Origin: Clostridia bacterium
GTDB taxonomy: Bacteria; Bacillota; TC1; UBA5767
DNA length: 64,000 nucleotides
Assembly (NCBI GenBank): GCA_016887505.1
Contig: CP069393.1
Location: forward strand, 2,255,001-2,319,000
Direction: 5' to 3'
Part shown: piece by piece, positions 35,683 to 49,993 of the stretch
How positions within the stretch are numbered: position 1 is the first letter of the stretch
Layout of the letters: each line of letters begins with the position of its first letter
Translations under genes and position numbers: made by a program
The notes under the pieces: model-generated
What the model saw: the letters and a program-made list of their open reading frames with translations, nothing else
The model's database searches: none
Told to the model about the DNA's origin: nothing

Positions 35683-35711
35683 TTGACTTTAAATTTTGTG
35701 ACAGCTAATAT
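35683..35711 (+). promoter_or_regulatory. Promoter of the cobalamin-riboswitch transcript
   Basis: TTGACT (35683-35688), 17 bp, TAATAT (35706-35711). Initiation near 35718 places the whole riboswitch in the leader RNA. Confidence 0.82.
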
Positions 35712-35727
35712 TAGTATATAACATATC

Positions 35728-35890
35728 TTTGTAGGATTATGAAAGAGGGAAGCCAGTGAAATTCTGGCACGGACCCACCACTGTGAGCGCTTCGGCGTAA
35801 GTCAGATACCCGCCTGCAAGGTATGCAAGTTGTTTGGGGAACGAAGCAATTGTATGCATATTGAAGGCGCATTGTCGTCATATCAAAGGA
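35728..35890 (+). promoter_or_regulatory. Cobalamin riboswitch aptamer
   Basis: The leader contains the conserved core of the cobalamin aptamer in order: AGGGAAGCCAGTGAAAT, then CCCACCACTGTGA, a small GCGC-TTCG-GCGT hairpin, and the B12 box AAGTCAGATACCCGCC (35799-35814). A further region with ATGCA/TGCAT pairing follows, and an intrinsic terminator sits just before the next gene's ribosome site. Binding cobalamin is expected to favour termination, so the downstream secreted-protein gene should be on when cobalamin is low. The outer boundaries are approximate. Confidence 0.9.
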
Positions 35891-35893
35891 TAC

Positions 35894-35916
35894 AGACCCG
35901 CTTCGGGTCTTTTTTT
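35894..35916 (+). terminator. Expression-platform terminator of the riboswitch
   Basis: AGACCCG-CTT-CGGGTCT followed by a run of seven T (35910-35916), 36 nt before the ATG of the secreted protein. This is the regulated stop signal. Confidence 0.88.
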
Positions 35917-35951
35917 ATAGCCAGAGAACATCATTTGGAAGGAGTACGTTT

Positions 35952-38900
35952 ATGATAAGAGGAAGAAAATGGTTGGCAGTTCTGCTTTGTATCTTACTGG
36001 GAATGACTTCAGTACCTGGGGCTGCGCTAGCAGGCACCCGGGATACGAGCTATGATGCAAGTGCCCAGCAGTTCGCCGAGGAATTATTCAATTCGCATAG
36101 CGAAACCGGTGTAGTATCCTTCGCAGATATTGGGGGATTCGACCTAGGCTCGGTGCTCGGATTGTATTTTGCAGATGTTGAGGTAGGAAAGTGGTCGCAT
36201 GAGGATCTTAGTGTGGCTGAGGCTGCCTATGATATGACGGCGGAGAATTCCAAGGAACTGGCAAACCAGTATATGGCCCAGTTTCTAATCGATAATCCGG
36301 CCTACCAGGATCTGGATGCCCTAGCAGCGCAGTTGAAAGAAAACTTTGATGTTGGCTATGATGAAGATGGATCCCAGGCAGGATTTTTCTATCCTGGTGC
36401 TTACGGTCAATGGGGAAACATGGATTGCCTTGATCGTTTGGCCATGACCGATTGGCATGAGAGGGTATCACTCAGTCAAGGCGAAATGGCGTCTATTGTG
36501 GAATATGTTCTTTCTCTTGCGATTGCGGATGGAGAACAAGGCTTTGGCGCTGGATACGGTACAGACTATAAGATGACAGCCCAGGCTCTGCGCATTCTGT
36601 ATGTTTATGGCTCCTTATTGGATTATGACCAATATACTTCATTGGTAGATCGTGCTGATGATGCTTTGGATAGAGCCCTTCTTTGGATGGAACAAGGTTA
36701 TTACCAGGTTACCAAAGAGGATGAAACGGTCAATGTACCCTACTTGCAAACGGATGGCAGTTTAAAAGGTGGAGATTGGGACATCCCGGTCATAGACACA
36801 GGAGAATATCTGGCTACCTTGGATGTGCTTGGCTTTTCAAGTAGTGAAATTATAGATCGGGTTGAAGGGGAATTGACTCTGGAAAATGGGGCAAATCCTT
36901 TACACTTTTTGAATACCCAATCTCCGGCGGATTTGGGAAATATGCAACAGGTTGAGACCGCCTTGCGAGGTCTACTTGCTGTTGGAGCATATGTTGATGA
37001 TACTGTCGAGATGAATATTCAACTAGATACGGTTGGCAGTGTAAGCTTGGAAGAACTCGCTGTAGGCGAGTCGGTTTATCTAAGGGCTTCAGGTGATACC
37101 CTATCTGGTGAAGTTATTGATCTTACGGTAGATTCAGACTATCTGGTGGAATCTCCTGCCTTGGGGCATGTTGATAAGGACCTGACTACGGCTTGGTTTA
37201 CTAGGGATAGTTTACTAAGTGGCCGGCTTCAGGTGGAGAGTCCGGAAGGATACAGCGATGAAATCGAGCTGTCTCCTGTTTCGGTATGGGTGCGGGTAGA
37301 GGCTCCAGACTATACGCTGCAGCCATTCGTAGAAGTAGATATCCAGGATGCTGCCAGTTACCAAGAGGTTATTTCTCTTTGGGCAGACCAGTATGGTCAT
37401 GAAGTTTCTTTTGATGAATTTGGAAATATCATTCTTGTCGACGGCATTTCACCAGTCGGTGTGAGTGCAGATGCGGGCTTAGCATTGTGGGTTCCAGTAG
37501 ATGAACGCGAGAGTTACCATGACGGCGATCGATTGGTTCTTTCCGGTAACTCCAGTGTTCGAAGTGCTGAAATTGAATTAGATGCATCACAAGCTCTACC
37601 TGGAAAGCTAGTCACGGCTACCGTACAAGATGCACTTTCAGAACCGGTTGCTGTAGCAGAGCTTGTTTACTATGACGAAGCACACAGCGAGACGCCATGG
37701 ACCGTAGGGTTAACCGACGAGAGTGGGGAACTTGATTTTTCAATACCGAGCAAAGGAAGGTATTGGGTGGCGGCCTCTAAGCCTGCTGCAGAATCAACAC
37801 CTGGTATTGCCCGTACTATGCCTGTGGAACTACTAGTAGGTGACGCAGTTGAAGTTAGAATTGAGAGTCCGAACTATACCATTGAGCCAGGGGAAACCGT
37901 GATTATTGAGGCTGGCGTTGACTATGTTGGGGTATTAGAGGCTTGGGCAAGTGCTGCACCAGATAGAAATATTGTGGTGGAAGGACTATCGATTAAGAGC
38001 ATTGAAGGGGAAAGCGAATCAGGCTTGTACTGGATGGTGGAACCATGGCAGGCAGACGGATACAGTGATGGAGACAGCTTGATTTTTTCTGGCAATACGA
38101 GTACCCGACAAGGTGAAATATCAGTATCCGATGATAGCATCTATGAAGGAAAAACCGTGGAGGTCTTGGTTACAGCAAGTGACCTACCGGTAGAAGGTGC
38201 GGAAGTAATCTACTACACCAGCAGCGATAGAGAAACACCTAGTATTGCTGGTCTGACCGATGAAGATGGCAAGCTAAGTCTAAGTTTGACTGACCGGGGT
38301 ACTTACTTTGTGGCGGCAGACAAGGACAATACGGCGAATTGGCCAGATCCTGACAATGGCCTTATCCGGACAATACCGGCCCAAGTTGAGGTTAGTAAAA
38401 AAGATACGGATGATGACAATGATGGTATCCGCGTTTCTGTTAAAGTGAACGGACAGGATGGTCGCCTGTATAGTGGCACAGTGAGCCTAGCATCATCAGA
38501 TAAGTATGGAGAAACGCCTCTTGGTGCTTTAGCCAAGACGGGATTATCCTATTCGGCATCGGGTGGCTTTGTTAAGCGCATCGAAGATGAATCGAACCTA
38601 GGGCAGAATGGCTGGATGTTCAAGGTGAACGGGACCATCCCCATGGAAGCAGCAGATAGCTTTGATTTGGATAATAGTGATGTCTTGGAATGGTTCTATT
38701 CAGATGATTTGAGTGCGCTCGATGAAATAGATTCAGATGACGATGAGGACGTTGAATATGAGGAAGCGGAGGTTCTTCTTGAAGGCGCAGAAGCGAGGAT
38801 AGAAGACTGCGAAGGCGGAAGAATTCTAAGACGCGAACAAGTAGGAGATGCGACCAAGATAGTTTTATCGGGAGATGACTTTGAGTTGATCTTGCCGGTG

Positions 38901-39620
38901 GAACTGTTTGGAGACAAAGAAGTAGTTCGGTTCTGGGTTCGTGCGGCGGCAGATGACACACAAGAGACCTTGGGAAAACAGTTGAAAGCCCAAAAGGGAA
39001 TCTTTTCTGCCAACTATCCCTTGCTTTCATTTACGTTTGAAATAGGAGACGGTGAGGATTTTGAACCACTAGGCTATTTGAGTAAACCGGCAAGCTTGAA
39101 GGTGCTTGGAACGGCAGGCCTTGGAGACTTGGTAGGCTTGATGGTAGAAGATGGTCAAATGGGTACGGTGCAGATTTCTTTTGTTCCCTACCTAGATGAG
39201 CAAAAAACCATAATGCTAAATCATTTTAGTGATTACTCAGTAGCAAGCTACTACAAGACCAATGAGTTGACCATTGCGATTGGTGAAAAGGAATTCACCC
39301 ATAATGGTGAACAAAAGAGTATGGACGTAGCACCTTTTATCCAGGATGGTAGAACTATGGTGCCGCTTAGATTTTTGGCGAATGCCTTTGGAGCCTGGGT
39401 CGGTTGGGACGCAGAATTGCAACAAGCTAGTGTAATGCTAGCAGATGAGCGTGTCAGCGTAGTGATAGATGAACCCATTGAAGGTTTCGATACCGAAGCA
39501 GTAATGCTCGATGGTAGAACCTTTGTGCCCCTGTCCTACATCAATGCATTTTTCGATGTGGAGTCGATTTGGCTTCCAACAGAGAAAAAGGTCATGATGG
39601 AGCGACCGGTTCTGGAATAG
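35952..39620 (+). CDS. Secreted protein with transcobalamin-C-like (DUF4430) domain and CuAO-N-like domain
   Basis: This is a 1222-residue exported protein. Signal peptide 1-27 ends ALA-G. Residues about 150-345 are helical, with DTGEYLATLDVLG and QVETALRGLLAVGAY, reminiscent of alpha/alpha-barrel repeats. Two related modules of about 190 residues follow (about 444-630 and 633-822, beginning VRVEAPDYTLQP and VRIESPNYTIEP). Residues 825-920 match the DUF4430 pattern, with GWMFKVNG near 887 and a DVLEWFYSDD end. The C-terminus (about 1105-1222) has DGRTMVPLRFLANAFG and DGRTFVPLSYI, as in copper-amine-oxidase-N domains of clostridial surface proteins. DUF4430 is the bacterial relative of the transcobalamin beta domain, and the cobalamin riboswitch upstream supports a cobalamin-binding role. 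Binding itself is inferred. GGAAGGAG lies 6-13 nt before the ATG. Confidence 0.85.
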   Translation: MIRGRKWLAVLLCILLGMTSVPGAALAGTRDTSYDASAQQFAEELFNSHSETGVVSFADIGGFDLGSVLGLYFADVEVGKWSHEDLSVAEAAYDMTAENSKELANQYMAQFLIDNPAYQDLDALAAQLKENFDVGYDEDGSQAGFFYPGAYGQWGNMDCLDRLAMTDWHERVSLSQGEMASIVEYVLSLAIADGEQGFGAGYGTDYKMTAQALRILYVYGSLLDYDQYTSLVDRADDALDRALLWMEQGYYQVTKEDETVNVPYLQTDGSLKGGDWDIPVIDTGEYLATLDVLGFSSSEIIDRVEGELTLENGANPLHFLNTQSPADLGNMQQVETALRGLLAVGAYVDDTVEMNIQLDTVGSVSLEELAVGESVYLRASGDTLSGEVIDLTVDSDYLVESPALGHVDKDLTTAWFTRDSLLSGRLQVESPEGYSDEIELSPVSVWVRVEAPDYTLQPFVEVDIQDAASYQEVISLWADQYGHEVSFDEFGNIILVDGISPVGVSADAGLALWVPVDERESYHDGDRLVLSGNSSVRSAEIELDASQALPGKLVTATVQDALSEPVAVAELVYYDEAHSETPWTVGLTDESGELDFSIPSKGRYWVAASKPAAESTPGIARTMPVELLVGDAVEVRIESPNYTIEPGETVIIEAGVDYVGVLEAWASAAPDRNIVVEGLSIKSIEGESESGLYWMVEPWQADGYSDGDSLIFSGNTSTRQGEISVSDDSIYEGKTVEVLVTASDLPVEGAEVIYYTSSDRETPSIAGLTDEDGKLSLSLTDRGTYFVAADKDNTANWPDPDNGLIRTIPAQVEVSKKDTDDDNDGIRVSVKVNGQDGRLYSGTVSLASSDKYGETPLGALAKTGLSYSASGGFVKRIEDESNLGQNGWMFKVNGTIPMEAADSFDLDNSDVLEWFYSDDLSALDEIDSDDDEDVEYEEAEVLLEGAEARIEDCEGGRILRREQVGDATKIVLSGDDFELILPVELFGDKEVVRFWVRAAADDTQETLGKQLKAQKGIFSANYPLLSFTFEIGDGEDFEPLGYLSKPASLKVLGTAGLGDLVGLMVEDGQMGTVQISFVPYLDEQKTIMLNHFSDYSVASYYKTNELTIAIGEKEFTHNGEQKSMDVAPFIQDGRTMVPLRFLANAFGAWVGWDAELQQASVMLADERVSVVIDEPIEGFDTEAVMLDGRTFVPLSYINAFFDVESIWLPTEKKVMMERPVLE

Positions 39621-39657
39621 GGTTGTAGGTCTGTTTTCACAAAAAAGGAGAATCCGT

Positions 39658-40962
39658 ATGAAAGATCGAAGAAAAAAAAGTATTTGGCGCTTACCTTGTG
39701 CGCTGGTACTGATTCTTAGTGCCAGCCTGGTGTTGGCACTTCCGGTCATGGCATCCGATTATGCCGTAGATTATTCTTACAGATTGGATAAGGCAACAGA
39801 TTATTTATTGCTTGCGCAGAATGCAGATGGCGGTTTACCGGCAGCCTTGAACCAAGATTCGGCTGTGAGTCCGAGTTCCTTTGCCCTGATGGCGCTACGT
39901 TCCTATGATGAAGCAGACCACCATGAAGAGAACTTGCTTTTAAGTCGTTATTTGGATAAGTCTCTGTCTAGTGATTTGAAACAAGAAGCTACCTTAGATT
40001 TAGCACGTTACCTAGTGGCGGTAGGTTCTTTGGGCACGAAACGAGCACAGGTTATTTCTGAACTGGAGTCTCGCTACCAAAAGGGACATTACGGTGTTAC
40101 GGGTGAAGAAAAGATGCTTAACGCGCAGGCCTGGAGTATGATGGCGTTAAAATCGCAAGGACGCCTGGTACCCGATGCCGCGGTGGATTGGCTATTAGAC
40201 CGTCAGAATGCAGACGGTGGTTTTGGATGGATTAGCGGCGGTTCAAGTGACCCGGATTCTACGGGTGTGGCCCTGAGTGCTTTGGGCTTTTGTGGACTTA
40301 GGGAATCGTCAGATAAGGAAGTGCAAAATGCCAAAAATTATCTCAAAAAGCAGATCGGCGACAATAGCGGTATGGATCTTAAGAATGTTGGCGAGAATAC
40401 GGCGAGTGATGCCTGGGCTGCCATGGGTCTTTTAGCGGTTGGTGTGGATGTGCGAACAAGTGCAGACTTCAGCGTGAAAGACCGGGATATGCTAGACCAT
40501 ATGACTACGTTGCAAGACAGCAGAGGTTGGTTCAACTGGCGTGAAGACGATGATGCCAGTACGGTGATGATGACTTCCTATGGTTTACTAGCTATGTCTG
40601 GCAAGCCATTCGGTATGAATTTAGGGGATAGAGCTACTAATGAAACGGCACTGTATGTAAATGGAGAAAGCGTAGCAGCAGACGTGGCTCCTCAGTTGAT
40701 CGACGGCAGGATGATGGTGCCGGTTTCATTTGTGGCTTCAAGTTTGGGAGCCAAGGTTACGTGGGATTCAAAGAGCAAGACCGTATATATGAGCTCTGCA
40801 GGGAAAGACCTGAAGCTGGTGGTTGGCCAAGAAATTCCAGGTTTGGGCACGCCCGTCATACGCCAGGCACGGACGCTGGTGCCGGTGCGCTATATAGCGG
40901 AGAGCTTTGGCAAACAGGTGAACTACACTAAGGGATATGAGACTAGGGTGACGGTTGAATAG
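39658..40962 (+). CDS. Secreted alpha/alpha-barrel (prenyltransferase-repeat) protein with CuAO-N-like domain
   Basis: This is a 434-residue exported protein. The signal peptide runs to about residue 32 (VMA-S). At least three helical repeats of the prenyltransferase/squalene-oxidase type follow: LLLAQNADGGLP (about 50), DRQNADGGFGWI (about 180) with DSTGVALSALGF, and LQDSRGWFNW (about 285). The C-terminal domain (about 330-434), with DGRMMVPVSFVASSLGA and ARTLVPVRYIAESFG, is copper-amine-oxidase-N-like and matches the end of the upstream protein. This barrel fold is that of the alpha domain of intrinsic factor and transcobalamin. It lies 37 nt after the DUF4430 gene with AAAGGAG, so it shares the riboswitch-controlled transcript. 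No enzymatic residues for a prenyltransferase are evident. Confidence 0.85.
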   Translation: MKDRRKKSIWRLPCALVLILSASLVLALPVMASDYAVDYSYRLDKATDYLLLAQNADGGLPAALNQDSAVSPSSFALMALRSYDEADHHEENLLLSRYLDKSLSSDLKQEATLDLARYLVAVGSLGTKRAQVISELESRYQKGHYGVTGEEKMLNAQAWSMMALKSQGRLVPDAAVDWLLDRQNADGGFGWISGGSSDPDSTGVALSALGFCGLRESSDKEVQNAKNYLKKQIGDNSGMDLKNVGENTASDAWAAMGLLAVGVDVRTSADFSVKDRDMLDHMTTLQDSRGWFNWREDDDASTVMMTSYGLLAMSGKPFGMNLGDRATNETALYVNGESVAADVAPQLIDGRMMVPVSFVASSLGAKVTWDSKSKTVYMSSAGKDLKLVVGQEIPGLGTPVIRQARTLVPVRYIAESFGKQVNYTKGYETRVTVE

Positions 40963-41011
40963 GGACCGGATAACCGTCTAGTAAAGAGAAGAATAGACAG
41001 AAGAGTAAACA

Positions 41012-41054
41012 AAAGAAAACCAGGGGAAGGCAAAGCCCTCCCCTGGTTTTCTTT
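41012..41054 (+). terminator. Terminator of the cobalamin-responsive pair
   Basis: AAAGAAAACCAGGGGA (41012-41027) pairs with TCCCCTGGTTTTCTTT (41039-41054) around an 11-nt loop; the arm itself ends in TTTTCTTTT. Confidence 0.9.
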
Positions 41055-41247
41055 TGGGTAGAGTACGTTGAATGTTAGGCTAGAAAGGGACGAAAAGACG
41101 TTTTTAGGTGCCTTATCTTGCCTAGAGCTTAATTATTATCTTGAATCGTAAAAAGCTTCTGGAAGAGGTTTGACAATCAGCAGATTATGCAATATATTTA
41201 AGTGTGATATTATACTTTGATTTAACGGTAGCATTGAGGAGGACTCG

Positions 41248-44028: not shown

Positions 44029-47000
44029 TTAAGCCGCGCGTTTTTTTCTGCGCTTAATTTGAATCGTTACAAACAAGAGCAGGCAAACAGCGAAAAACCC
44101 AATGAGCTCTTTCCATTTAAAGTGAATACTAGAGGAAACGATGCAGAAGGTCCCTTCTTGTCCCGACATGGTAAGCAGCAGATACTGGCCATTGGCTGTC
44201 GTTTCTCGTATCTGCCATGTTCCTTCTGAATATTCCCATACCTCGGCATCTTTATTTGGATCATACAAAAGCCGGATGGGTACCGTGTCTTCACTGGTAA
44301 TGTCGCTGCCGGTGATACTCAGATGCAAGGTAGTGACGGAGTCACTACTTATGGTGATGCTCGAAGTATCCTCACTACTAGTAGAAACATGGAGATTTGC
44401 TTGGTCTGTGAATTTTCCCTCTGCAAGTGCGAGAGACTTTTGGCTTTTGGCTTCAGTTTCTTCACTTGCAAGTACGGTGACATAGGGTAGGTACTCGGCT
44501 ATTGCCGTAATATTTCCCGTGACCGTATCTGATTCTAGGTTGGTCCACCGACTATAGTAGCCAGGCTTTTCGGGAATTTCAGGAAGTTTTAGTGAATCTA
44601 TTTTTGTACCGAAGTCGACACTTATAACCGAGATGGTTTTGGTATCTGCGATAAAGTGGATGCCAAAGGCCAAAAATTCTCTAGGAATATTGTCCAATTT
44701 CTGCATCTCTTCAAAGGAAAGCGGCTCGGCCAGCCCGCTATAGCTGATGCTGTCGATGCCAGCAATCCCCTGACTTACATAGTAGTTATTGCGAACAAGG
44801 CTGTTGTCTTGTTCGATGTCCCCAGCAATGGCGCCGAGACATTCCTCTCCGGAAAGGATGTTTGTAATACCGTAGCAATCACGTATCTTGGTTCCCCTAC
44901 CGACGATACCGCCTATATAGCTTTCTCCTTCTAGGCTACACTTGGCGAAACTCTCGCGGATGTGGCCCGTGGAGTAGCCGGCGACTCCCCCGACATAGTC
45001 TCCATTTGTGCTGGAAGTGGATGCATAGTTTTCACATCCAATGACAGTACCCAAATCCATGCGCCCTACGATGCCCCCTATGCAGTCCTTCTTGCCGGTT
45101 ATTTCCCCATGGTTGATGCAATCCGCAAGGACGGACTTGGTTTCATAGGTTGCATTGATTGAGCCAAGGTCTATGACGTCATCTTCTGGATCCAAATCGA
45201 TTTCAATGGACATGCTGCCAATGATACCGCCTACATTGCGGTCTGCCTCGATGTTGCCGCTATTTTTACTGTTGGCCACCTTGCCGAGTCTGGTACCATT
45301 TATGTCTTCGTTCGAGGTGTCTTCAATGTAGTCTGAAATTTCTGCTTGGTCCGTATTATCTGTTAAATCAGTCAGGGCATCGATAACCAGGGTCATGATG
45401 ACGTTGAATTGGTCATTCACAGCCCGCAGGTCGTTACTCAGTGTTTTGCTTGACGATGATATGGAATCATTTAAATCGGCCATTTCTTTGGAGATTCCCG
45501 AAAGAGAAGTATATAGCGCATTGCTGGTATCTCGGTAATCTTCACTTAGGGGACTAAATTCAATGGTCTTTTCAGCGGATAGATCCTCTGTTAAGTCTTT
45601 CAGTCCGCCGATGGTGGACCTTGCTTCCTTGGAGGCCCTCGTAATGGTGTCTAGGAGGTCTTGAAACTCGTCTGATATATCCACATAGTTAAGAGCTTTT
45701 TGTAAGTTCTCTAGGGCGCTTACATAGTCATCATTGGCCTGCTCTAGATCTAGAAAGGCTTGGTGAAGTAGGTCGTGATCTATGTCTATGAGTGTTTGGT
45801 TGGCCAAAATATCGGAAGCCAGGTTGCTGATGGTACTACTCATATCTCCCAAGGCAGTACTCGCCTGCAGGATGGCTTGGGAGATCTCGAGGGCACTTTC
45901 TCCTAGGTCTAGCTCTGTCCAACCTTCTGTTTGCTTGAGACTGTCGTTAAGCTCTTCTAGCGTCGTGCTGGCTTTTTGCTGCGCCTCGGCTATTTGTTGC
46001 AGAGCACCCATTGTTTCTTCATCTCCAGCAAGCGCAATGACCGCTTCTTGGATGGCCTGGTCTAGTTCTTGGGCATTGCTAGCGTTGAAAGCATCCGATA
46101 CGCTTTGGGTGGCCTTGCCCAGTGTTGCTAGTGCAGATTTAATTTCTTCATTTGCTGAGGCTAGGTCGTCTGCCGCAAGTTCAATATGGTGCATGGAGGC
46201 AGAATCATCGATGTCGTTTGCATAGTCTTCTATCTGTTCCAGGGCCTTGGTTATGGCAGAGGAGGTATCTTCTGCATCTTCAAGAATCTCATCCATCTGG
46301 TCTAAGGTGTCAGAAAGGATTGCACTGGCTCGGTTTACCTCACTGATATTGTCATCGACGAAGTCTTGGGTTTTGTTCAGCAAGTCCTGCGACTGGTCTT
46401 TGGCTGAATCGGTGTAGGCTGCAACCAAGTCCAACTGTCTCGTAACGGTGTCTGTGCTTGCGTCAGCATCATCCAAGGTGTCGTTCAGTAGCGTATGGAA
46501 GACGTTTAACTCGGTTTCCAACTGGTCTAGGGTGTTGTCCGACAGACTCATGATGACGTAAGGCTCCGATTGTCCTACGATACCGCCTACGTCTTTACGA
46601 CCATAGAGGGTGCCCGTGTTGGTGCAGCCGGAGAGGTAGCCAGCTTGTCTTCCGGCTATTCCGCCTACATTGTAACCCATGTGGGCATATCCCACTGTAC
46701 CCGTGTTGAGACAGCCTGTGATGATGCCATTTGAATAACCTGCGATGCCGCCTGAGTCGGTATGCATCAGTAAGGAGGTATCGGCATCTTCTTGTGCAGA
46801 CAGTGTCGTCAGCTTTTCCATCATGGCGCTGGGATCTAGGTCCATATCATCTAGGCTGTGGGTGGCTTCTACGGTGGTGGTGTTGACCTGGCTGTGGCTG
46901 GTACACTTGGTCACCGTGCCTAGATTTTTACCGACGATACCGCCGGTAGCCTTTTCGGCGATGACGTTGCTGCTGGTACTACAGCCGCTGATTAGTCCAG

Positions 47001-47508
47001 TTTCTAGGTTTTTACCGACGATACCACCTACGGACGCCTTGCCACGTACGATGCCATCAAAGGAACAGTTAAGGATGGTGCCCGCATTGCTCCCAATAAT
47101 GCCCCCTACGATGGACTTGCTGCCATCTGGGGTGACGCTTCCCCGGACATTCAGGTCTTTGATGGTGGCATTCGTCTGGAGGTAGCGGAAGAATCCTTGC
47201 TTTGAACCGGCCGTGTCAAGATGGTAACCAGATATGGTATGTCCGTTTCCTTCAAAGCTTCCCCCAAAGGTGGGGATGGATTGAAAATCGCTATTTTCCA
47301 GGTTTAGGTCCTGCATGAGGACGATGGTTTTTCCGTTAGACCAAGTGTCTAGCGAACAGTTTTCTGCCAATTTTAGCAAATCCTCTACACTAGAAATCTG
47401 GATGTAGTCTGGGTCTGCAGCACTAGCAGGAGCCAAGGGTAGGAAGGTCAAAACCATGGCTAGGAGCAATAGAATACTGGTAAATTTATTGTTTATCTTG
47501 TTTGACAT
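44029..47508 (-). CDS. Cell-surface GLUG-repeat protein with a 400-residue coiled coil and C-terminal membrane anchor
   Basis: This is a 1159-residue exported protein. The signal peptide ends ASAAD near residue 30. Two blocks of GLUG-type repeats (VGGIIGSNAG, VGGIVGKNL and similar) at about 60-310 and 725-900 should form a beta-helix. Between them a helical, Asp/Leu/Gln-rich coiled coil of about 400 residues (about 318-716) recalls the YhgE/Pip type. A beta-rich region then leads to a single membrane helix (about 1130-1150) and a KRRKKRAA tail. ATG 47508 has AGGAGGT 8 nt upstream and lies 23 nt inside the end of the MMPL gene. The role is unknown; context suggests a partner of the MMPL exporter. 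Confidence 0.82.
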   Translation of the reverse strand: MSNKINNKFTSILLLLAMVLTFLPLAPASAADPDYIQISSVEDLLKLAENCSLDTWSNGKTIVLMQDLNLENSDFQSIPTFGGSFEGNGHTISGYHLDTAGSKQGFFRYLQTNATIKDLNVRGSVTPDGSKSIVGGIIGSNAGTILNCSFDGIVRGKASVGGIVGKNLETGLISGCSTSSNVIAEKATGGIVGKNLGTVTKCTSHSQVNTTTVEATHSLDDMDLDPSAMMEKLTTLSAQEDADTSLLMHTDSGGIAGYSNGIITGCLNTGTVGYAHMGYNVGGIAGRQAGYLSGCTNTGTLYGRKDVGGIVGQSEPYVIMSLSDNTLDQLETELNVFHTLLNDTLDDADASTDTVTRQLDLVAAYTDSAKDQSQDLLNKTQDFVDDNISEVNRASAILSDTLDQMDEILEDAEDTSSAITKALEQIEDYANDIDDSASMHHIELAADDLASANEEIKSALATLGKATQSVSDAFNASNAQELDQAIQEAVIALAGDEETMGALQQIAEAQQKASTTLEELNDSLKQTEGWTELDLGESALEISQAILQASTALGDMSSTISNLASDILANQTLIDIDHDLLHQAFLDLEQANDDYVSALENLQKALNYVDISDEFQDLLDTITRASKEARSTIGGLKDLTEDLSAEKTIEFSPLSEDYRDTSNALYTSLSGISKEMADLNDSISSSSKTLSNDLRAVNDQFNVIMTLVIDALTDLTDNTDQAEISDYIEDTSNEDINGTRLGKVANSKNSGNIEADRNVGGIIGSMSIEIDLDPEDDVIDLGSINATYETKSVLADCINHGEITGKKDCIGGIVGRMDLGTVIGCENYASTSSTNGDYVGGVAGYSTGHIRESFAKCSLEGESYIGGIVGRGTKIRDCYGITNILSGEECLGAIAGDIEQDNSLVRNNYYVSQGIAGIDSISYSGLAEPLSFEEMQKLDNIPREFLAFGIHFIADTKTISVISVDFGTKIDSLKLPEIPEKPGYYSRWTNLESDTVTGNITAIAEYLPYVTVLASEETEAKSQKSLALAEGKFTDQANLHVSTSSEDTSSITISSDSVTTLHLSITGSDITSEDTVPIRLLYDPNKDAEVWEYSEGTWQIRETTANGQYLLLTMSGQEGTFCIVSSSIHFKWKELIGFFAVCLLLFVTIQIKRRKKRAA

Positions 47509-49993
47509 CGGGTTGTACCTCCTCTCCAAGGGGTAGTTGATGATCGACTGGGATAGTTGTATCTAGATTTTCCAGGGACCCGGCTTCTACTAAAGCATTG
47601 AGGGAACCGTAAACCGTACCGGAAAAGTCTGCATCCACCATACCGGAAACATAGCCTCGTACATGTCCTGTGACCCGCATGCTTCCATAGCGAGTCTGCC
47701 TGAGGGGGGCTTTTTTCAAGGTGAAGGCTGTTTTTTCAATCAGCAAGTCTCCGACCAGCAGTATTTGAGGAAGTATCCCCATGACCTGCAAGATGGAGAT
47801 GATGGTTCCTCGACCTAGGCAGGTTCCAATAGACGCGATGGCAGGATCGGAAGACAAACGTCCGATCAAGAGTCCTGCTGACGCCAGCATGGTACCCGAT
47901 GTGATGATGGTCGGGAAGCCTTGGTTGAGAGCCTCCACAATGGCCTCCTTGATGGGCATCTCTTTTTTCAACTGCGTATAGCGGTTGGTGATTACGATGG
48001 CGTAGTCAATGTTGGCCCCCATCTGGATGGCGCTGACCACCAAATAACTCATGAAAAACAGGTTCTCCTGTTGCAGATATGGTATGGAGAAGTTAAGCCA
48101 AATACTGCTTTGAATCACCACAATCAGAAGAACCGGAAGACCGGCCGACTGGAAGGTGAATAGGAGTACCAACATCACGAATACTGCCGATAAGATGCTG
48201 ATAAGGATGTTATCGTTTTTAAAGGAAGAGGCTAGGTCGGCATCACTAGTGGATTCACCCACTACATAGACGCTATCGTAGTCGTAGTATTCTCCTCCTA
48301 TTTCGTGGAGCGTGTCTAGAAAAGCGAAGGTTTCCTCACTTTCTTCTGGTAGATTTAGTTTAAGTACAAACCGACTATAGTTTTCTCCTTCTAGTTGTAA
48401 TCTAGCATCGGTTAGTTTTTCATGGATGTCTTCTAGGTCTTGGTTTAAATCGGCATCTAAGGTTACATAGCCTAATTGAACCTGGTCATAGACAAACATG
48501 AAGATATCGATTAGCGGTACGCCATAGGAATCAATCCCACTGACTAGCTTGCCATAGGTTTCATCGTCCACGGCATAGGCAGAATACAAGAGTCGTGCTG
48601 CCTCAATATCCAGGTCAGTCAGTTCTGAGAACTGGCGGGGCGTAAGCTTGTCGGTCAGGATGTAGTCGTCCATGGCTTCAATGGAGGAAAGTCCTTGGAC
48701 CGAATCAATTTGGTCTAGCGCTTCAATTTTTTGCAACAATTGCTTTTCCGTATCGTAGTCTCCGGAAGGTACCATCATGGCGAGGGTATTGGTGGTTCCG
48801 AAGGTATCGCTAATCTTTTTCTCAGCAATCTGGGCATCATTTTGTTTTACGGTACTTAAGGTGCTATATCCATAGACATAGGGACATTTATTCGCAAAAA
48901 TGAAGGATGCGATTACCAGTACGATGAAAACAGGCAACATGACGAAACGAGTCTTTACGGCCATATGTCCCCAGACATTGATGGTCGGCACGAAGTTTTT
49001 ATGGTGCGTTTTGTCAATGAGCTTGCTAAAAGAAAGTAAGAGTCCGGGCATCAGGGTGAAGACACACAGCAAGCTAAGGACGATGGCCTTCATCAGTACG
49101 ATTCCCATATCGTAGCCGATTCGAAATTGCATAAAGGTCATGGCTACCAGTCCCATCAGGGTGGTCAAGCTGCTGCCGCATATTTCCGGGATGGCCTTAC
49201 TAAGTGCAATGATGACTGCTTGTCTAGGTTCTGCTTTTTTTCGCTCTTCCGTGTAGCGGTGGCAAAGAATGATGGCGTAGTCGATGGCAAGGGCCAGCTG
49301 CAAGACTACTGCTACCGAATCCGATACAAAGGAAATGGTGCCAAACAGAAAGTTGGTTCCCATATTGAGCAGGGCGGCTATGGCGAAGGTAATAAGGAGT
49401 ACTGGAATCTCAGCATAGGTATGGGAGGTAAACAAAAGGACTGCCAAAATAATGAAAATGGCGATGCCCATAACGACTTTCATTTCAGCCGCGATGGATT
49501 CAGCTCTTGATTCTCCAACAGCGCTATCGATATATAGGTCATAGCCAGATAAGTCTTCCTTGATGCTATTCATAGCGTCAAGACTTACCTGGTCGGTTTC
49601 TTCACCGTCGAACACCACACGAAAGAGGGCGGAAGCATCGAGATACTGGTCGTCTTCCTCTTCAAACTCTACCGAGCTTACGCCGGGTGTTTCTTCAATT
49701 TGACGGGCGATATCCTCTGCCTGTTCATAGGAGATGTTGTCGACCATGATGTCGGCTGTGCCAAAGGTGGTGAATTCATCTTCCATGATGCTGAGCCCGA
49801 TTCTGGTTTCTGCATCTTCTGGCAGATAGTCAGTTAAGTCATTGTCTACTGCAACCCAGTTCATGGAAAAAGCACAAAAAATGGCCAAGATACCATATAG
49901 GAGGTAAAAGGCTTTGCGTTTGTCTACAATAATGGCAGATACTTTTTCTAGGGCGCTGGTTTTGTTTTCGTAGTTTTTGTTTTTCTTGCTCAC
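47486..49993 (-). CDS. MMPL/RND-superfamily exporter
   Basis: This 835-residue membrane protein has one N-terminal helix (about 28-48), a soluble domain, a helix cluster (about 170-340), a second soluble domain and a second helix cluster (about 560-760), the two-fold RND layout with about 12 helices. ALAIDYAIILCHRY and the second-half counterpart GANIDYAIVITNRY are the paired motifs of helices 4 and 10 in MMPL proteins and carry the proton-relay Asp. MMPL proteins commonly export lipids or hydrophobic compounds. The start is GTG 49993, overlapping the preceding small gene by GTGA with GAGGTG upstream. A TetR gene is divergent from the operon. Confidence 0.93.
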   Translation of the reverse strand: MSKKNKNYENKTSALEKVSAIIVDKRKAFYLLYGILAIFCAFSMNWVAVDNDLTDYLPEDAETRIGLSIMEDEFTTFGTADIMVDNISYEQAEDIARQIEETPGVSSVEFEEEDDQYLDASALFRVVFDGEETDQVSLDAMNSIKEDLSGYDLYIDSAVGESRAESIAAEMKVVMGIAIFIILAVLLFTSHTYAEIPVLLITFAIAALLNMGTNFLFGTISFVSDSVAVVLQLALAIDYAIILCHRYTEERKKAEPRQAVIIALSKAIPEICGSSLTTLMGLVAMTFMQFRIGYDMGIVLMKAIVLSLLCVFTLMPGLLLSFSKLIDKTHHKNFVPTINVWGHMAVKTRFVMLPVFIVLVIASFIFANKCPYVYGYSTLSTVKQNDAQIAEKKISDTFGTTNTLAMMVPSGDYDTEKQLLQKIEALDQIDSVQGLSSIEAMDDYILTDKLTPRQFSELTDLDIEAARLLYSAYAVDDETYGKLVSGIDSYGVPLIDIFMFVYDQVQLGYVTLDADLNQDLEDIHEKLTDARLQLEGENYSRFVLKLNLPEESEETFAFLDTLHEIGGEYYDYDSVYVVGESTSDADLASSFKNDNILISILSAVFVMLVLLFTFQSAGLPVLLIVVIQSSIWLNFSIPYLQQENLFFMSYLVVSAIQMGANIDYAIVITNRYTQLKKEMPIKEAIVEALNQGFPTIITSGTMLASAGLLIGRLSSDPAIASIGTCLGRGTIISILQVMGILPQILLVGDLLIEKTAFTLKKAPLRQTRYGSMRVTGHVRGYVSGMVDADFSGTVYGSLNALVEAGSLENLDTTIPVDHQLPLGEEVQPDVKQDKQ

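Follow-up and report, generated by a model that had tools for sequence, protein, structure and literature searches.

A riboswitch-led operon for a probable transcobalamin-like B12 capture system in a Clostridia bacterium

Background

The animal carriers of cobalamin (vitamin B12), namely intrinsic factor, transcobalamin, and haptocorrin, are built as an alpha/alpha toroid (alpha domain) followed by a beta-grasp domain (beta domain) on one chain. Exported toroid-SLBB surface proteins of low-GC Gram-positive bacteria were predicted by Burroughs et al. in 2007 to scavenge B12, their genes being accompanied commonly, if not universally, by paralogous SLBB neighbors and CbiO/CbiQ operons, and the animal carriers were proposed to have been acquired from Gram-positives (PMC1796856). 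The subject of the present analysis is a two-gene operon of a Clostridia bacterium (GenBank assembly GCA_016887505.1), located in a stretch of 64,000 nucleotides of contig CP069393.1 (positions 2,255,001 to 2,319,000, forward strand), which is called the window here and to which unprefixed nucleotide positions refer. A cobalamin riboswitch precedes two open reading frames, ORF1 and ORF2, and the operon is read as a riboswitch-controlled B12 (corrinoid) capture system of the bacterial transcobalamin-like kind, with a probability of roughly 0.7.

ORF1 has the domain order of the animal carriers; unlike them, it is bacterial and probably wall-associated, and its toroid and beta-grasp domain are separated by about 470 residues of immunoglobulin (Ig)-like domains and DUF4430-like repeats. 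An exported DUF4430/SLBB domain, fusion to a toroid (degenerate in ORF1), Ig-like domains, and surface attachment are held in common with the transcobalamin-like SLBB clade of Burroughs et al. The present locus differs from that clade in its PF07833 anchor, in having a second toroid chain in place of the paralogous SLBB protein, and in lacking linked CbiO/CbiQ; the paralogous protein and CbiO/CbiQ were found in most relatives. Riboswitches are not mentioned in the main text of the 2007 paper, whereas the present operon is led by one (PMC1796856). The energy-coupling factor (ECF) transporter ECF-CbrT, of which 6FNP is a structure, transports cobalamin and cobinamide; genes for its CbrT-type EcfS, EcfT, and EcfA share operons with the capture genes in relatives, unlike at the present locus, where they are absent (PMC5997447). 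The present locus adds to the 2007 work a connection with the riboswitch, one with CbrT among relatives, and an ECF-less variant with PF07833 and a second toroid chain. BtuG and BtuH of Bacteroides are, like the proposed pair, surface proteins that catch B12 ahead of an importer; they are lipoproteins coupled to BtuB outer-membrane transporters (PMC6143338, PMC10404256). Literature searches on DUF4430 and bacterial transcobalamin, which covered few subscription papers, returned no experimental test of B12 binding by the bacterial relatives.

Results and discussion

Leader and riboswitch

In an Rfam search of the whole window, the cobalamin riboswitch family RF00174 was matched upstream of ORF1 at 48.8 bits (E-value 3.6e-9), which passes the gathering threshold of 31.5 bits and assigns the aptamer to the family by score. 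The aptamer is compact, with a few bases standing where the family model has a long peripheral insert. An intrinsic terminator (stem at 35894-35910 and a T run to 35917) lies between the aptamer and the start codon of ORF1. From aptamer to terminator the leader is near-identical over its full length in the same-genus relative L056; it has been kept there while the DNA 5' of it has diverged and the encoded proteins are only 60-72% identical. The leader is predicted from its sequence to bind a cobalamin and to change transcription. The candidate promoter matched consensus at only 9 of 12 positions, and 13 matches of this quality were seen in the region against 8.4 (standard deviation 2.8) expected from shuffled sequences. 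Minimum-free-energy folding of the leader gave an uninformative z score of -1.68. A tracrRNA match overlapping the leader scored under its gathering threshold and was dismissed as chance.

Domain organization and fold of the two proteins

Sec-type signal peptides were judged by eye to be present on both proteins. The DUF4430 domain of ORF1 (1222 aa) was matched by Pfam family PF14478 at aa 861-917 (E-value 1.8e-9), and its AlphaFold2 model has the order strand-strand-helix-hairpin-strand-strand with a predicted local distance difference test (pLDDT) score of about 85. The hairpin after the helix, which Burroughs et al. (2007, PMC1796856) single out as characteristic of the transcobalamin clade, is present in the model, where strands 839-842 and 845-849 come after helix 828-834.

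The N-terminal region of ORF1 (aa ~29-345) fits a profile built from the N-terminal toroids of relatives with an E-value of about 4e-6, compared with best values of 0.05-0.6 among 300 shuffled sequences; the same region of the same-genus orthologue reached about 1e-15 to 1e-13. It was modeled as all-helical (about 13 helices), with confidence beginning near model residue 120, and Foldseek matched it to the RabGGTase beta subunit and related toroids. Between the toroid and DUF4430, aa 447-540 and 635-730 are 30% identical to one another (E-value 4e-13) and match DUF4430 in profile-profile comparison (79% probability, E-value 1.6e-5). These segments, each followed by an Ig-like domain, are probably decayed DUF4430-like repeats, of which the relative L082 has one. 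ORF1 is 60% identical to its orthologue in L056/L070.

ORF2 (434 aa) was assigned to PF00432 at a borderline 26.6 bits (cut-off 26.5). Its toroid was modeled with a pLDDT of 84, is 72% identical to that of the orthologue in L056, and was matched by Foldseek to terpene cyclases and to human transcobalamin (4zrp, 2bb5; E-value ~1e-6). Both proteins end in PF07833 (E-values 1.6e-21 for ORF1 and 7e-24 for ORF2); in many relatives, SLH repeats take the place of the ORF1 copy.

Foldseek comparison of ORF1 with the PDB placed the beta domain of human transcobalamin (5no0) at a template modeling score of 0.63 and a probability of 1.00, with haptocorrin (4kki), intrinsic factor (2pmv), and a further animal carrier structure (2v3n) also among the matches. 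Probabilities for the animal carriers were 0.99-1.00, yet their E-values were only 5e-3 to 1e-2 and the chains as wholes fitted loosely. Both domains together matched 2pmv with a probability of 1.00 over 455 columns (E-value 9.6e-3). The link to the animal carriers is structural, and also runs through Pfam and the work of Burroughs et al.

The original prediction, made from the sequence alone, had described a complete leader with promoter, aptamer, and terminator; two exported proteins, one with DUF4430 and one with a toroid; a common CuAO-N-like C-terminal domain; and kinship of these domains with transcobalamin and intrinsic factor. The riboswitch, terminator, export signals, domains, and kinship were all recovered, and the promoter alone stayed at a 9/12 match. 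Absence of an RF00174 match and absence of a fold match to intrinsic factor had been named as results that would count against the idea, and both matches were found. The toroid and DUF4430 had also been taken to be split over the two chains and to form a two-protein clamp with one domain from each; this division was not confirmed, as ORF1 carries its own degenerate N-terminal toroid.

Survey of related loci

Contigs from the genomes of 84,980 species were scanned with DUF4430 alone, and the best 80 named loci were kept; these include loci of Moorella, Thermosediminibacter, Desulfotomaculum, Pelotomaculum, Anaerostipes, and Paenibacillus. Cobalamin riboswitches were detected within 10 kb by means of a covariance model made from 15 such riboswitches, and several of the negatives are due to contig ends. 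A riboswitch was found in 63/80 loci, directly 5' of a DUF4430 or toroid gene in 59/80. Since the whole 2.56-Mb source genome holds only 2 cobalamin riboswitches, the association is far beyond chance. EcfT and EcfS were each present in 61/80 loci, and the EcfS profile matched chain A of 6fnp (E-value 1.1e-24). The operon typical of relatives consists of a riboswitch, a toroid-DUF4430-SLH protein, a small DUF4430 protein, EcfT, a fused EcfA, and EcfS; a separate toroid protein may or may not be present. Toroid and DUF4430 stand on one chain in 50 of the 80 loci, often with a separate toroid protein in addition. The riboswitch and CbrT associations tie the surface proteins to B12 far more directly than does domain resemblance.

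Shorter forms were also observed. L125, L128, L134, L139, and L144 hold a short cassette of a toroid and/or DUF4430 protein beside an EcfS of 171-187 aa; EcfT and EcfA were not found in the stretch examined around them, and these cassettes apparently share an ECF module encoded elsewhere. A one-gene form, in which a toroid-DUF4430 gene stands alone under a riboswitch, was seen at L094:8681-11305, L097:8678-11305, and L109:3826-7269, with no importer genes recognized in the stretches examined.

Importers and B12 genes

The source genome is 99% complete. CbiC, the only B12-biosynthesis enzyme looked for, was not found in it, and the genome therefore probably lacks corrin ring synthesis, in keeping with the scavenging role originally predicted. 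Its second riboswitch has cobT and corrinoid-protein genes around it (named by eye). CbrT was not found in a profile search of the genome, whose own best match (E-value 4.7e-5) was judged by eye to be an ECF-S of another kind with an MGS-like gene beside it; the match at C1:1987112 is read as an ECF-S other than CbrT. In a BtuCDF-like cluster at C1:379.9-382.8 kb, the genome's single FecCD permease is encoded together with a BtuF-like lipoprotein and an ATPase resembling BtuD; BtuC models match the permease best, yet under their cut-offs. Directly 5' of these importer genes lies a Big_5 Ig-like exported protein (L006:10284-10853; C1:379.3-379.9 kb).

A same-genus relative with the capture pair also has the arrangement riboswitch-BtuF-BtuC-BtuD-cobQ. 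BtuFCD is thus riboswitch-controlled together with cobQ in the sister genome; it is not linked to the present operon. Since CbrT is absent from the genus and a BtuFCD-type importer is encoded elsewhere in the genome, BtuFCD is the likelier partner here, and ECF-CbrT in other groups. The hand-off to BtuFCD that was originally proposed is therefore plausible for this genus, where it is probably the importer; it does not extend to most relatives, whose capture genes adjoin a CbrT-type ECF transporter.

Two further clusters were observed. Relative G002 has a second one on C53 (L174:354-13322), in which two importers of the FecCD type, several binding proteins resembling BtuF, and genes for corrin synthesis were named by eye; this same-genus relative can thus probably make B12, yet keeps the capture pair. 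In the source genome, a DUF4430 lipoprotein of 126 aa comes immediately after an ECF-S-like membrane ORF (L007:8648-9509; C1:528.6-529.5 kb), without riboswitch or ECF module. This pair resembles the module-less toroid-DUF4430-EcfS cassettes of L125, L128, L134, and L139. As a candidate CbrT, the ORF had no Pfam, NCBIfam, or PDB match, and its match to short ECF-S proteins of other genomes was marginal (E-value 0.001).

Proposed mechanism

When cobalamin is plentiful, it would bind the leader and transcription would end at the terminator; when it is scarce, the two secreted, presumably wall-associated proteins would be made. B12 capture outside the cell is the most likely role of the pair, and ORF1 may, like the animal carriers, bind cobalamin tightly. 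The two decayed DUF4430-like repeats and the Ig-like domains would form a stalk, with PF07833 fixing ORF1 at the cell surface, and ORF2, a second toroid with the same type of anchor, would either partner ORF1 or offer another binding site. The captured corrinoid would then pass to a membrane importer, which would be ECF-CbrT in most relatives and probably a BtuFCD-type system in the present genus.

We suggest, quite tentatively, that the carrier of this genus has parted from ECF-CbrT and cooperates with BtuFCD instead. It would do so as a reinforced pair made up of a full single-chain carrier with extra DUF4430-like repeats and a second toroid able to pair with them. If so, one surface module would serve two unrelated importers across the Bacillota. 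The riboswitch and CbrT links provide defined, expressible constructs for work on B12 binding. Should binding be confirmed, the system would be a bacterial counterpart of intrinsic factor and a widespread B12 capture step of the Bacillota, comparable in role to BtuG and BtuH of Bacteroides. To our knowledge, and without a homology comparison, the latter do not have the toroid plus DUF4430 architecture.

Alternative explanations

Several observations weigh against capture of B12 by a transcobalamin-like carrier. The ORF1 toroid is degenerate, with a pLDDT of about 47 over much of its first 120 residues. The whole ORF1 model fits intrinsic factor (2pmv) loosely, at a root-mean-square deviation of 19 A, and the relative placement of the two domains is therefore not matched. 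At the level of sequence profiles, neither DUF4430 nor the toroid retrieves the animal carriers among PDB sequences, so that the link to these rests on fold comparison. Terpene cyclases match ORF2 at least as well as transcobalamin does, because alpha/alpha toroids are a common fold; toroid fold matches do not discriminate by themselves. Sequence does not settle the substrate of the source genome's only FecCD importer, which has no riboswitch. Finally, genomes such as that of Lactococcus lactis encode DUF4430 as well, and the ligand may differ there.

In one alternative, the ORF2 toroid and the ORF1 DUF4430 domain hold cobalamin between the two proteins. The better preserved toroid is that of ORF2, the two genes are adjacent and kept as a pair in the genus, their products share the PF07833 end, and many relatives have a separate toroid gene beside DUF4430 genes. 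A clamp with one domain per chain is nevertheless unsupported, since both domains occur in ORF1 by itself, as they do in the animal carriers and in single chains of the 50 loci noted above, often besides a separate toroid protein; we regard a two-chain clamp as possible and rather doubtful.

It is unlikely that the ligand is another cobamide precursor or a non-corrinoid and that the riboswitch merely signals B12 status. DUF4430 is found in genomes that we do not know for B12 use, archaeal members synthesize B12 (PMC1796856), and so, judged by its corrin-synthesis genes, may the same-genus relative with the pair; against this stands the strong coupling to CbrT-type importers and B12 riboswitches.

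Less probable still is that ORF2 acts not as a binder but as an exported terpene-cyclase-type enzyme, for instance a modifying one. Squalene-hopene and drimenyl cyclases are its best profile and fold matches, and some relatives have a DxDD-like motif (SDPDDTG). However, the DxDD acid motif of class II terpene cyclases is absent from ORF2, which reads DPDS (SDPDSTG); the protein is exported, riboswitch-controlled, and adjoins a DUF4430 protein, and human transcobalamin matches it at a similar E-value. That these are ordinary wall or stalk proteins behind a riboswitch by happenstance, as the frequency of PF07833 in proteins of the source genome and relatives might suggest, is very improbable given the recurrence of the riboswitch in the survey.

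Feature coordinates and neighboring genes

Table 1. Positions of the operon's features in the window.
Feature	Position	Strand	Evidence
Candidate sigma-70-type promoter, TTGACT-17-TAATAT	35683..35711	+	9/12 consensus, position suits aptamer start; weak
Cobalamin riboswitch aptamer, compact, without long peripheral arm	35716..35831	+	RF00174 48.8 bits; kept in same-genus relative
Expression platform ending in intrinsic terminator	35832..35917	+	Stem and T run; near-identical in L056
ORF1, exported multidomain protein	35952..39620	+	Orthologue in L056/L070
ORF1 degenerate alpha/alpha toroid (alpha domain), aa ~29-348	36036..36995	+	Profile versus shuffles, model, Foldseek
ORF1 probable decayed DUF4430-like repeat 1, aa 447-540	37290..37571	+	Repeat identity, profile-profile match
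ORF1 Ig-like domain 1 (CarboxypepD_reg/Big_1-like), aa 554-616	37611..37799	+	Pfam
ORF1 probable decayed DUF4430-like repeat 2, aa 635-730	37854..38141	+	Repeat identity, profile-profile match
ORF1 Ig-like domain 2 (DUF4198/Big_1-like), aa 730-789	38139..38318	+	Pfam
ORF1 canonical DUF4430/transcobalamin-type beta-grasp, aa 820-925	38409..38726	+	PF14478, model, Foldseek 5no0
ORF1 C-terminal PF07833, probable wall/stalk domain	39234..39425	+	Pfam, E-value 1.6e-21
ORF2, exported toroid protein	39658..40962	+	Orthologue in L056
ORF2 alpha/alpha toroid	39739..40632	+	PF00432, model, Foldseek
ORF2 C-terminal PF07833	40654..40938	+	Pfam, E-value 7e-24
Terminator-like inverted repeat closing the unit	41010..41056		20-bp stem

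Elsewhere in the window, a 1166-aa ORF (44032-47529, minus strand) was matched neither in Pfam at 1e-10 nor in NCBIfam at 0.001. It lies just downstream of a gene for an MMPL/RND-type transporter (47489-49993, minus strand).

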